Of a stretch of DNA of 64,000 bases, positions 31,451 to 39,417 are shown piece after piece. The stretch covers positions 85,317 through 149,316 of the forward strand of contig CACIST010000002.1 of the NCBI GenBank assembly GCA_902589395.1, given 5' to 3'. The DNA is from an uncultured Pelagibacteraceae bacterium. Lineage in GTDB: Bacteria > Pseudomonadota > Alphaproteobacteria > Pelagibacterales > Pelagibacteraceae. The first letter of the stretch is position 1; every line of letters starts with the position of its first letter. A model generated the notes under the pieces. That model saw nothing but the letters and a program-made list of their open reading frames with translations. It made no database searches and was not told the DNA's origin. The translations under genes and the position numbers were made by a program.

Positions 31451-33289
31451 GTGGAACGTATAATTACAAAATCATTTGCAAGACTTATGGGCAGAGGTGT
31501 CCATAGAGGTTTCATCACTCACGAAGAATTGAATAAATCATTAGGAAAAAGAAATTTGTCTAATGAAAACTTGGAGCAAGCTTTCATACATATCCTAGAT
31601 GAAAAAATTATATTAGTTGAAAAAAAAGCAGATTTTAAGATTTTAAGAAAAAAAGATAATGGTTCCAAAGAAGAGGGGAAGTCCATTGAAAAAAGTGACG
31701 ACCCGATAAGAATGTATCTAAGAGAAATGGGAGGTGTCGAACTTCTTTCTAGGGAAGGAGAGATTGCCATTGCCAAAAGAATAGAGGCTGGAAAAGATGT
31801 TATGTTAAATGCACTTTCTCAAAGTCCAATTACGGCACAACAACTTTTTGAATGGAATACAAAACTTCAAAATGATGAGATTTTAGTTAGAGAAATTATT
31901 GATATTGATACGAATTATATGGAAGATGAAGATACTGGCCAAAGCGCTAAACAAAAAAAATCAAATGATGGTGGGGAAATTCAAAATGGTCAAGAAACGG
32001 AAAGCAACGCGGATGAGGACGAATTTAACCCTACACTCGCTGCAATGGAGACAGAAATTAAACCTAAAGTTTTACAAACAATTAATAATTTAACCAAGGA
32101 ATACAATAAACTCATAAAGTATCAGAAAGAAAAGTTGGAATGTGTATTAAATTCTAAGCAGTTTTCACCTTCAAAAGAAAAAAATTATAAAAAAATTGTG
32201 GATGATATTTTAGAAAATATAAAAACTCTCCAGCTTTCCCCTTCCGTCTTAGAGGAATTAGTTCAAAAACATTATGTAGAAAATAGAAAAATAATTTCAC
32301 TAGAAGGCAATCTATTGAGATTTGCGTTAAATGAAAAAATTTCAAGGGATGAATTCATAAAATTTTATGTAGGTAATGAAATTAATCCTAAACTAAAAAT
32401 TTTTTTAGGTACAAATGAAACTTGGAAAAAATTTTTTCAAAAATATAAAGATGAATTCAAAAATATAAGAGATAGACTTATTGAGACAAGTAATAGGTTA
32501 GGAATTTCAGTTACAGATTACAAATCGATGGTAAGTAGAATTCAAAAGGGTGAAAAAGAATCTAGAATTGCAAAAAAAGAAATGGTTGAAGCTAATCTTA
32601 GATTAGTTATTTCAATTGCAAAAAAATATACAAATAGAGGTTTGCAATTTCTAGATTTAATACAAGAAGGTAATATAGGTTTAATGAAAGCTGTGGATAA
32701 ATTTGAGTATAGAAGAGGTTATAAATTTTCTACATACGCCACATGGTGGATAAGACAAGCTATAACTAGATCAATTGCAGATCAAGCTAGAACAATAAGA
32801 ATTCCAGTTCATATGATTGAAACCATTAACAAAATTGTGAGAACGCAAAGGTTAATTTTAAGTGAATTTGGAAGAGAGGCAACTCCAGAGGAACTTGCTA
32901 AAAAATTAAGAATGCCACTGGAAAAGGTTAGAAAAGTATTAAAAATTTCTAAAGAACCAGTGTCACTAGAAAAGCCAGTTGGAGATGAGGAAGATAGTAG
33001 TCTAGGCGATTTTATTGAGGATACAAAAGCATTAGCCCCACTAGAGCAAGCAATTAAATCAAATTTAAGTGAGGCAACTACTAAAATACTTTCAACTTTA
33101 ACTCCAAGAGAAGAGCGTGTTTTAAGAATGAGATTTGGAGTTGGAATGAATACTGATCATACTTTAGAAGAGGTTGGTTTGCAGTTTTCAGTAACAAGAG
33201 AAAGAATTCGTCAAATAGAGGCAAAAGCACTAAGAAAACTGAAGCACCCTAGTCGATCAAAACAACTTAAAAGTTTCTTAGAAAGTTAA
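31451..33289 (+). CDS. rpoD: RNA polymerase sigma factor RpoD
   Basis: Region 2 ([33 protein letters not shown]) and region 4 motifs. Confidence 0.96.
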
Positions 33290-33290
33290 A

Positions 33291-33365
33291 GGGCCGTTAG
33301 CTCAATAGTAGAGTACTGCATTGACATTGCAGGGGCAGTTGGAGCGTAACCAACACGGCCCACCA
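33291..33365 (+). tRNA. tRNA-Val(GAC), non-canonical D- and T-loops, CCA encoded
   Basis: GGGCCGT/ACGGCCC acceptor; GCTC/GAGT; CTGCA-TTGACAT-TGCAG; GTTGG-AGCGTAA-CCAAC. Confidence 0.8.
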
Positions 33366-33382
33366 TATCTTATAATACAAAG

Positions 33383-34957
33383 TTATTCGTTGATTAGTAG
33401 TTCAACCTTTCCCCAATTTTTATGGGTTTCATAGTAGGTAAAATAATATTTATTGGGTAAATACTTTAAATTTATATCTTCCGCACAGTTATAAGCAAAC
33501 CTTGATAGGTTAATTGGTGATTTTACGATTTTAGTATTCATTTTATTTTCACATTTTTCTGGGTAAAAAACTAAATTGAAAATTTTTGACCTATCAATTT
33601 TATTATCAATATTATCATTTTCATCAGCATTTATTATTTGTTGATCGTTTTTATTTAAAGTGTAACCATGATCACCACTAAAAATAATTATTTTTTGTTT
33701 TTCAGAAAGTAAATTTATATTTTTTACAAATTTTTTAATTAAATTAAGTGTACATTTGTAATTATCTTCATATTTACCATTTGTATTTATAGAATTACAA
33801 TTTTTATCAACATTAAAAGGTGCATGAGGTTTCATTAGGTGCATAAAAAAAAAATTTTTATTATTAAAGTCAATTTTTTTAAAAAACTTAAGATCATTAT
33901 CATTCATTATTTCAAAAGTTGATTGAACACCTGATTTATTAAGTGATTTGTTATTAATTCTTCTTATCAAAAAATCTAACAAGCTCTTTTCGTAAAAAAT
34001 TTCCAAAGAATTTAAATAATGGATAAGTTTTTTTTGTTTACCACACATATTAGGCTCATAAGCATTACTTTTGCAGTACTGATAGTCATTACCAGTCCAA
34101 TAAAATTTTCTGTTAAATTTATTATTCAAAAATGTAATTGGTAATTTTTCATAATCATTTATTAAAGTATTTGGAAAAAAATTTTTATAAGATGAATATT
34201 TTTTTGATTTTTCAGTAATTGGATAATTCAAATTAAAAATAGACTGCAAACTCAAATGTGTGGTTGGGTAATTAGATATTGAATTAAAAATATAACTTCC
34301 CTTCAAATTTTCCAATTGTCTAATTATTTTATTTTGATTTTTTATTACACCATTAGTTTCAGCATACTCTAGACTGATCATGCCATCCAATATAATAAAA
34401 TATATATCTATATTGTTAGTATTATTAACAATCTTAATTTCATCTAAATTGAAAGCCTCTGTCTGATAATTTACAGTGTCTTTCTGACTAAAAAATTTAA
34501 AAAAGTTGAATGTAATATATCCATAATTAAGAATTATAAAAATAAGTATAAAATTATAAAATTTATTTTTAAACTTGTTTGAGTTTAAAATATAGTAAGT
34601 AATAAAAAATATTAAAATCAAGATTATCGAAAAAATTATAATTGAAAATAAAAATCCACTAAATATAACATTCTCAAAAAAAGCCTTGAATTTTAAGTCT
34701 TCAAAAAAAAAACTTATAAAATAAGTAATACTAATACTTAATATAAACCCATCAAAGTTAACTAAATTTTTTGAAAAAATAAATTCTAATAAGAATATAA
34801 ATAAAAAAATTGCAGAAATAATTAAAATTTGAAAACTTAATATATTAATAATATCGTAATTATTGATTTGAATTAAATTTTGCTCTCTTAAAAATAATAA
34901 ACATGGTAAAAAAAAAATTAATATAGATAAAAATTTGTTATTAAGTAATTTTTTCAT
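33383..34957 (-). CDS. membrane-anchored sulfatase/alkaline-phosphatase-superfamily-like protein
   Basis: N-terminal TM helices, then IDIYFIILDGM...FMHLMKPHAPF...FSGDHGYTL metal-site motifs. Confidence 0.7.
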   Translation of the reverse strand: MKKLLNNKFLSILIFFLPCLLFLREQNLIQINNYDIINILSFQILIISAIFLFIFLLEFIFSKNLVNFDGFILSISITYFISFFFEDLKFKAFFENVIFSGFLFSIIIFSIILILIFFITYYILNSNKFKNKFYNFILIFIILNYGYITFNFFKFFSQKDTVNYQTEAFNLDEIKIVNNTNNIDIYFIILDGMISLEYAETNGVIKNQNKIIRQLENLKGSYIFNSISNYPTTHLSLQSIFNLNYPITEKSKKYSSYKNFFPNTLINDYEKLPITFLNNKFNRKFYWTGNDYQYCKSNAYEPNMCGKQKKLIHYLNSLEIFYEKSLLDFLIRRINNKSLNKSGVQSTFEIMNDNDLKFFKKIDFNNKNFFFMHLMKPHAPFNVDKNCNSINTNGKYEDNYKCTLNLIKKFVKNINLLSEKQKIIIFSGDHGYTLNKNDQQIINADENDNIDNKIDRSKIFNLVFYPEKCENKMNTKIVKSPINLSRFAYNCAEDINLKYLPNKYYFTYYETHKNWGKVELLINE

Positions 34958-36311
34958 AGTAAATAATTTTTCTTTTTGAACCTTTTAAATCATGTACTTT
35001 AACAATATTGCATTTTTCTTTAAGAAATTTTAAAAAATTTTCTAAATTATAATCATCATAATTTTTAGTTTTAAACATCTTCATCCTTTTAACCATTTCA
35101 TCATCATTAGGAATAAATTCAACCAAGCCTTTTTTTGATAATTTTATAATAAAATTTAAGACTTCAAAGAGTGGTATATTTTTGCTAATAACCAAATGAT
35201 GAATTAGTGCAAAAGATAATGAAAAATCAAAATTAAACCTTTCAACAAAACTTTTTTTTTCTTTACAATCCCAACCTATTGACGAAGATAAGTTTGACAA
35301 ATCCGCATACAGAGGAGTTATGACTTCGTTATTATCAAATCCAATTTTTTCTAAGCATTGCATGTCATAATCTAAAGCAATAATTTTTTTTACCCCTAAC
35401 TCTTTTGAAATGAATGAATATTTTGCATCATTACAACCTATGTCTATTAACGAATAAGGTTTATTTGTTGAGATATAAGATTTTAATATATTTTCTTTTT
35501 CTATTTCACTTTCTTTTGAATAAGAATGAGTATTTGAATAATTAGACCAAGTCGATTTATTTTTTTTATATTTTAATTTTTCAATAAAATTTTTTAAATT
35601 CTTAATTAAAAAAGTTTGACTTTGTTTGTAAGATCTTTTCCTATTTTTTTTTGATATTCCACTTTTGCTACTAAGATTTTCTGTAAAATATACGTTAATT
35701 AAAAGTGAAAATGAAAAAAAAATTTTGTAACCTAACAAGTTAATTAGTTGCCTATTAGAAATACCATTTAAATTTCCTTTATAAATTTCATTAAATGGTA
35801 AATTAAAGTAAGATGAATAAACCAATGGATTTAAAAATTCTTCACAAAATTGTTTGTGTCCTTGCCATGGAGTGTTTTCATCTAATTTTTGTAAAGATAA
35901 TATATCAATAAATATTGGCTTATTATTTTTAAATTGTACATTATAAGCCGACGCATCTTTTAAACTTATATTCTTTTCAAGTAAAAAAAGCTGAAAATCC
36001 AAATGAAAAATTGCTGCGTTTTTAAGTTGCGAAAAAGTCCATTCATATGGATAGGTCCAATTTTCTAATTTTTCATGTTCTATGAATTTATTTACTTCGT
36101 CAAAATTTTGAGAAATTAAATCTTGCTCTTTTACTTCCCAGCTATTTATTAGTAAATTTTTATTTATTAATATTTGGTAGATATCTTGATTTTCGAGAAA
36201 ATTATAATTTTCAATATAATTATTTTTTATTGATCTAAATATTCTATTTTTAAAATTAAATATTTGACCAGCATCATCCCTAAATGAAGATGGATCATTT
36301 ATCAGTGTCAT
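34941..36311 (-). CDS. class I SAM-methyltransferase (NoeA-like) with kinase-like N-terminal region
   Basis: SLIDIGCNDAKYSF SAM motif, IALDYD; N-terminal LKDASAYNVQF...PIFIDILS. Confidence 0.6.
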   Translation of the reverse strand: MTLINDPSSFRDDAGQIFNFKNRIFRSIKNNYIENYNFLENQDIYQILINKNLLINSWEVKEQDLISQNFDEVNKFIEHEKLENWTYPYEWTFSQLKNAAIFHLDFQLFLLEKNISLKDASAYNVQFKNNKPIFIDILSLQKLDENTPWQGHKQFCEEFLNPLVYSSYFNLPFNEIYKGNLNGISNRQLINLLGYKIFFSFSLLINVYFTENLSSKSGISKKNRKRSYKQSQTFLIKNLKNFIEKLKYKKNKSTWSNYSNTHSYSKESEIEKENILKSYISTNKPYSLIDIGCNDAKYSFISKELGVKKIIALDYDMQCLEKIGFDNNEVITPLYADLSNLSSSIGWDCKEKKSFVERFNFDFSLSFALIHHLVISKNIPLFEVLNFIIKLSKKGLVEFIPNDDEMVKRMKMFKTKNYDDYNLENFLKFLKEKCNIVKVHDLKGSKRKIIYYEKIT

Positions 36312-36639: not shown

Positions 36640-36716
36640 GGGCCTGTAGCTCAGTTGGTTAGAGCAGTACACTCATAATGTATTGGTCCCAGGTTCGAGT
36701 CCTGGCGGGCCCACCA
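36640..36716 (+). tRNA. tRNA with CAT anticodon (elongator Met or Ile2)
   Basis: Canonical cloverleaf, anticodon loop CTCATAA, T-arm CCAGG-TTCGAGT-CCTGG, CCA encoded. Confidence 0.9.
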
Positions 36717-38948: not shown

Positions 38949-39306
38949 CGCCAGATAAAAGACTTATCGCTTTAATTTATTAAAGAGGAAAGTCCGGGCT
39001 CTACAAAGACACAGTGCCAGTTAATGGCTGGCGGGGGCGACCCTAGGGATAGTGCCACAGAAAATAAACCGCCTTATCAAGGCAAGGGTGAAAAGGTGTG
39101 GTAAGAGCACACCGGCTAAGTTGGTAACAGCTAGCGCATGGAAAACCCCACTGGGAGCAAGACTGAGTAGAGATGACACTGTTAGAAATAACGAAAAGCA
39201 GTCTTTGGCTAGTCATCTGGGTTAGTTGCTTGAGCCTTAAAGTGATTTAAGGTCTAGAGAAATGATAAGTTTAAAAGACAGAACCCGGCTTATATTTTAT
39301 CTGGCA
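38949..39306 (+). ncRNA. rnpB: RNase P RNA (boundaries approximate)
   Basis: GAGGAAAGTCCGGGCT conserved core; P1 stem GCCAGATAAAA/TTTTATCTGGC; 3' CAGAACCCGGCTTAT. Confidence 0.93.
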
Positions 39307-39417
39307 AAATCATAACCTTTTAATTCTTATCTTGTACTAAATAAAATCATTATTTCTATTTTGTTACATTGAAGAAATTAAGAACAAATCAAGAATACTC
39401 AATTGTAATATTAGGTG

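Follow-up and report, generated by a model that had tools for sequence, protein, structure and literature searches.

A Conserved Non-Canonical Elbow in a Pelagibacterales tRNA-Val(GAC), with Covariation of the 18/55 and 54/58 Pairs

Introduction

Textbooks present positions 18, 54, 55 and 58 of tRNA as near-invariant, and the models with which tRNA genes are found rely on them. The canonical contacts of the elbow are G18-Psi55, G19-C56 and m5U54-A58 (PMC4810234, PMC7912444), with G18 entering the gap between 57 and 58 to meet Psi55, and G19-C56 forming the face exposed to the ribosome and RNase P (PMC4810234). A tRNA-Val(GAC) gene in a 64,000-nucleotide stretch of DNA from an uncultured Pelagibacteraceae bacterium (the window) departs from the canonical sequence at all four of these positions, and we ask here whether this reflects an error, a gene in decay, or a working tRNA whose elbow is paired in another way.

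The tRNA-Val(GAC) gene

ARAGORN calls a tRNA-Val(gac) on the forward strand at 33291-33365, and the Rfam model RF00005 matches 33291-33362 with 53.6 bits, well over its cut-off of 29. From the acceptor to the anticodon arm the gene reads GGGCCGT TA GCTC AATAGTA GAGT A CTGCA TTGACAT TGCAG, with the anticodon GAC (reading GUU and GUC) placed by ARAGORN at 33323-33325, and from the variable region to the 3′ end it reads GGGCA GTTGG AGCGTAA CCAAC ACGGCCC A CCA. All 21 of the 21 stem pairs form, and the cloverleaf is the predicted minimum-energy fold (-28.6 kcal/mol, z -3.5). The four paired stems, encoded CCA, and D- and T-loop sequences given in the initial annotation are thus borne out by the sequence, ARAGORN, Rfam and the fold. 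An alternative fold pairing a T-loop GAGC with the D-stem GCTC was dropped, since the minimum-energy structure and the centroid are both the cloverleaf. The rpoD gene lies immediately upstream on the same strand (31451-33289), and because a single base separates the end of its stop codon from the tRNA the two are likely to be co-transcribed. The same window also contains a class A RNase P RNA (38951-39308, forward strand).

With numbering taken from the alignment, the D-loop AATAGTA (33304-33310) is A14 A15 T16 A18 G19 T20 A21, and the T-loop AGCGTAA (33343-33349) is A54 G55 C56 G57 U58 A59 A60. In place of the canonical G18-U55 and U54-A58 there are therefore two coupled swaps: G·U to A·G at 18/55, in which A18 (33307) is the proposed intercalated partner of G55, and U·A to A·U at 54/58, around a G55-C56-G57 triloop (33343-33347). 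The G19-C56 pair is present, and G19 (33308) is kept in all of the SAR11 elbow variants that we read. Positions 48 and 60 are both purines, with A48 (33337) opposite A15 in an unusual R15/R48 Levitt position. The 54/58 swap and the retention of C56 and of a single D-loop G, which proves to be G19, had already been recognized; position 55 has also changed, as was first described, but so has position 18, from G to A, such that 55 is compensated and is not an unpaired oddity.

Within the window genome the deviation is peculiar to this gene: the tRNA at 36640 has an ordinary TTCGAGT T-loop, and GG and TTC are present in each of the 25 further tRNAs identified in this 80% complete assembly. A search of the same 80% complete genome (46 contigs) for a second tRNA-Val(GAC) found none; it carries a normal tRNA-Val(UAC).

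Variation among relatives

BLAST of the window 75-mer against 298 Pelagibacterales genomes gave matches in 189, of which ten have a canonical elbow, one is a 3′ remnant, and 178 were taken as non-canonical, with base-by-base reading covering nearly all of the divergent matches and 30 of the near-identical ones. The non-canonical elbow is thus present in about 178 of the 298 genomes, in most of them with one mismatch to the window. About 150 other genomes differ from the 75-mer by a single base and have unrelated flanks; because the flanks differ among relatives, selection acts on tRNA-Val(GAC) itself. In all 29 such relatives that were read the difference is at position 47 (33336), where the window has C and the relatives T. 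Sequencing error or private mutation is thereby ruled out as the origin of the elbow, which is common to about 178 genomes and to which the private C47 does not belong, and chance is excluded as its source. Some relatives with a canonical loop at this locus, which by the initial annotation would point to a private error or mutation, do exist, but they differ at 18, 54, 55 and 58 together.

Strong conservation alone is normal for a tRNA, and Val(UAC) is conserved to a similar degree in the same genus; the point is that Val(GAC) is not decaying. Across 15 distinct Val(GAC) sequences from SAR11 every stem cell is paired (315/315), and 15 of the 21 pairs have changed on both sides. The 54/58 pair in these 15 rows is UA in nine, AU in six and a mismatch in none, and 18/55 in distinct SAR11 Val(GAC) sequences is either G/U or A/G. 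In the double-swap set positions 18, 19, 53-56, 58, 60 and 61 are invariant, 57 varies only between G and A, 59 varies between A and T, and the acceptor and anticodon stems vary. One genome (G193) has an intermediate Val(GAC) with A18/G55 and with U54/A58 still there, the first swap only, and the two swaps are therefore separable.

These data bear directly on whether the gene is a decaying tRNA or pseudogene, redundant with tRNA-Val(UAC) and in the course of losing its elbow. Val(UAC) is indeed near-universal across the order, one genome (G111) retains just a 3′ remnant of Val(GAC), and in a few Pelagibacter-genus (g1) genomes no Val(GAC) could be detected; but decay does not account for some 150 genomes lying one base from the window, for stems that all pair with compensatory changes, or for invariant elbow positions, nor for the same 18/55 swap in the tRNA-Phe of a genome (G026) that has no other Phe gene. 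We consider decay very improbable for this gene, and as a general explanation it is ruled out by the compensatory changes and by the recurrence described below. Genus-wide conservation, compensatory stem changes and altered positions that covary as pairs instead uphold the original impression of a reorganized elbow.

Elbow swaps in other tRNAs, bacteria and viruses

An RNA model (R1) proved too permissive to single out Val(GAC), but its search of the remaining genomes yielded a tRNA-Phe(GAA) whose D-loop reads AGTAGTA and whose T-loop reads TGCGATT. The corresponding pattern, A18/G55 with U54/A58, was run over 85,462 species with an ARAGORN check of the matches listed, and among these are ARAGORN-confirmed tRNAs of many isotypes, from Pelagibacteraceae, Patescibacteria, Elusimicrobia, Verrucomicrobia, Chloroflexi, Planctomycetes and DPANN archaea. 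It is present in 123 of 248 SAR11 genomes, chiefly in Phe, when tRNAs with a GCTC/GAG D-stem are considered, and A18/G55 is also found in SAR11 His (G001, G007) and Thr(GGU) (G026, G185) tRNAs. The deviation that had appeared specific to one gene is thus so in the window genome but not in its relatives, whose Phe, Thr and His tRNAs also show the 18/55 swap.

Mixed states are rare. In the 248 SAR11 genomes the pattern search (same D-stem) recovered no G18/G55 and no true A18/U55, the five raw matches to the latter being GG D-loops preceded by A. Strict patterns in viral contigs, with the same D-stem, matched A18/G55 in at least 120 stretches, A18/U55 in six and G18/G55 in none, and A18/U55 is accordingly tolerated in a few viral tRNAs. 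A looser viral G18/G55 pattern matched 78 stretches, 21 of them inside ARAGORN tRNAs; among the matches listed, most are ordinary TTC-loop tRNAs and a few are not. At least 30 viral tRNAs, belonging to eight kinds, carry the double swap independently; eight of them are Val(GAC) and six Val(UAC).

We also counted unique bystander tRNAs, which were not selected by the patterns but come from loci chosen for at least one variant. Pooled, these give 18x55 counts of GU 426, GG 2, AU 2 and AG 54 (p ~1e-66), with mixed states in 4 of 484, and 54x58 counts of UA 463, UU 0, AA 6 and AU 19 (p 3e-29), relatedness being ignored for tRNAs that are not phylogenetically independent. A54/U58 is also seen with G18/U55 (for example in ATCGTTA loops), and the two swaps are therefore independent. 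It is accompanied by purines at position 48 (42/52, versus 112/491) and position 60 (49/52, versus 10/491). Because purine 48 is already found in canonical SAR11 Val(GAC), it probably preceded the elbow swaps in SAR11.

Several individual loci deserve mention. Five viral loci (L340, L342, L347, L361, L371) show the second swap by itself, in tRNAs that have G18/U55 but an inverted 54/58 pair (T-loops ATCGTNA). Four Verrucomicrobia/Planctomycetes-like MAG contigs (L200, L212, L220, L262) carry dense tRNA arrays with many TGC T-loops and A18-type D-loops, and these are probably large phages. Five Streptomyces/Streptacidiphilus loci (L194, L203, L213, L216, L250) have genes resembling tRNA-Gly(TCC) that combine A18/G55 with a poor T-stem, and L194 contains four tandem matches to the A18/G55 pattern.

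TruB and the elbow

TruB makes Psi55; G55 cannot be a TruB substrate, nor A54 a TrmA substrate. A search for TruB (TruB_N) in five Pelagibacter-genus genomes and one from a sister genus (G070) gave no match in any of them, but four SAR11 genomes that branch earlier do have TruB. The gene order in G026 is infB-rbfA-rpsO-pnp, versus infB-rbfA-truB-rpsO-pnp in G001 and G009, an order that is intact in earlier-branching SAR11. At about 1215525-1218110 in G026 (L668 and neighbours) rbfA is followed by rpsO with truB cleanly excised from between them. The early concern that the altered loop would affect TruB recognition is consequently moot, the genus having no detectable TruB, and recognition by RNase P need not be impaired, as the G19-C56 face on which RNase P stacks is always kept. 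We infer that lack of Psi55 synthesis favoured the switch or allowed it to be tolerated. Loss of TruB as a strict requirement for the variant is ruled out by G159, which has both TruB and a double-swap Val, and by G001, which has TruB and an A18/G55 His tRNA.

G026 is a complete genome, of which 99.8% was read, and three of its 32 tRNAs are A18/G55: Val(GAC), Thr(GGU) and the only Phe detected. Because a Phe tRNA is required and only one was found, the A18/G55 elbow must support translation. Val(GAC), on the other hand, could be dispensable if tRNA-Val(UAC) covers GUU and GUC, which together make up 58% of the Val codons in G026.

Some tRNAs serve outside translation, the staphylococcal peptidoglycan tRNA-Gly being one for comparison, and a specialized non-translational tRNA of that sort might look like the present case, where of two redundant isoacceptors one has a changed elbow. 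The 18/55 swap is found in many isotypes, however, including an apparently sole Phe tRNA, the G19-C56 surface is intact, and the codons at stake are the majority of the Val codons in G026; we consider a non-translational role very improbable.

Evolution of the locus

Two minus-strand ORFs lie at 33383-36311 of the window, in the variable island that separates tRNA-Val from tRNA-Met, the first a weak match to a sulfatase family (PF00884) and the second without a family match. In G111 (L072, 1500-1545) a 46-nt 3′ remnant of tRNA-Val(GAC) with its 5′ half missing lies upstream of the usual tRNA-Met and looks like a scar left at the attachment site when an island integrated. A carB tree of 28 genomes, a sample chosen for variants and a gene that may itself recombine, shows seven or more changes of elbow label.

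One account of this pattern is allelic replacement, in which a Val(GAC) gene at the edge of a variable island is exchanged by phage or island integration and the elbow is cargo. The sister genomes G046 and G167 have nearly identical carB genes, and yet their Val(GAC) alleles, at one and the same locus, are very different and are followed downstream by non-homologous DNA; together with the att-like 3′ fragment in G111 this places Val(GAC) at an island edge and indicates exchange of alleles, and Val tRNAs with the same elbow are found on viral contigs. The canonical and non-canonical alleles in two near-identical pairs (G257 versus the major type, and G289 versus G167) are nonetheless distinguished by little besides the elbow, as though it had been changed in place, and among the viral copies read none is close to a SAR11 allele. 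Alleles at this locus have thus been both exchanged and, in near-identical pairs, changed in place, and replacement as the explanation of the elbow is possible but somewhat doubtful.

Neutral constructive drift would explain the same changes differently: after loss of TruB, and perhaps of other elbow modifications, position 55 would no longer have been held by its modification, and 18/55 and then 54/58 would have drifted from one equivalent state to another without benefit. The repeated changes on the carB tree, the purine 48 already in canonical SAR11 Val(GAC), and the stepwise intermediate in G193 are as expected for such a process. It fits less well with the near-absence of mixed states, which suggests that 18/55 intermediates are costly, and with the double swap in phage tRNAs and in the TruB-bearing G159. 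We regard drift as a serious candidate at a little under even odds. It addresses why the elbow changed and, like allelic replacement, is compatible with a re-paired elbow.

Discussion

We conclude, with a probability of roughly 85%, that the window gene encodes a working elongator tRNA-Val(GAC) with a re-paired D-loop/T-loop elbow; the elbow is real, it is conserved and it is very probably functional, and the tRNA is presumably expressed and active in decoding. In the proposed structure A18-G55 would replace G18-U(Psi)55 as a compensating alternative and A54-U58 would replace the U54-A58 closing pair of the T-loop, leaving unchanged the exposed G19-C56 pair seen by the ribosome and RNase P. 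A18 most likely enters between 57 and 58 as G18 does, meeting G55 there, a geometry that we infer, and G55-C56-R57 plus A18 may form a GNRA-like composite similar to that made with the outside A in riboswitch UGNRA T-loops. Such an elbow would need neither m5U54 nor Psi55.

More tentatively, A18-G55 with or without A54-U58 could be a second, RNA-encoded elbow state of bacterial and phage tRNAs that replaces the Psi55/m5U54 elbow, spread in SAR11 with the loss of TruB, and recurs where modification is absent or unreliable, as in phage tRNA arrays and reduced genomes; we put this broader proposal forward as a conjecture that may well prove wrong. A contact set regarded as near-universal does have a natural alternative, which recurs in phage tRNAs and in essential tRNAs other than Val. 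Natural covariation is seen at both tertiary pairs, including in the apparently sole Phe tRNA of very abundant ocean cells, and this covariation is comparative proof of the 18/55 and 54/58 pairs. The SAR11 elbows offer a natural test of the purpose of m5U54 and Psi55, and the absence of TruB provides a specific and testable link between loss of a modification and RNA sequence evolution. On the practical side, gene finders under-score tRNAs with a swapped elbow.

We found no earlier description of A18/G55 or A54/U58 in tRNA in the open-access literature, but there are several systems with which the SAR11 elbow can be compared. It shares with the canonical elbow the cloverleaf, G53-C61, C56, R57, G19-C56, a 7-nt T-loop and an encoded CCA, and differs from it in A18, A54, G55 and U58 at four signature positions and in the purines A60 and A48.

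Riboswitch T-loops provide a second comparison. In the TPP and FMN riboswitches an outside A (or the TPP pyrimidine) fills the gap between positions 4 and 5 (PMC2258182, PMC3764141); FMN riboswitch T-loops with G at position 2 take an A in this same gap (PMC3764141), and in UGNRA triloops the loop G pairs with an A from elsewhere, the two completing a composite GNRA tetraloop (PMC2258182). Because riboswitch loops with G at position 2 accept an intercalated A, A18/G55 fits a known alternative T-loop state. By analogy with the UGNRA T-loop or lone-pair triloop, A18/G55 would be expected to have its G at loop position 2, and this G is indeed exchanged jointly with a change of the intercalating base to A, as the 18x55 association attests. 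The U-A closing pair of the UGNRA loop is kept in Phe, Thr and the G193 Val but inverted to A-U in SAR11 Val (A54/U58), and the SAR11 case differs from the riboswitch loops in being an intramolecular tRNA elbow, of predicted geometry.

A third comparison is with eukaryotic initiator tRNA and tRNA-Ala(AGC), which combine A54/A58 with R15/A48 and R60 (PMC7566577); the same A54 companions occur in eukaryotic tRNA-Ala, and the pairs are stated to be absent from bacterial and archaeal tRNAs (PMC7566577). A54, R15/A48 and R60 do co-occur in the SAR11 tRNA, which differs from the eukaryotic type in having U and not A at 58, and A/G at 18/55. Lastly, the Steinberg group reportedly obtained E. coli suppressor tRNAs from randomized D- and T-loops, in which alternative 54-58 and 18-55 combinations are said to function; those suppressors are the products of artificial selection, whereas the SAR11 elbow is natural.
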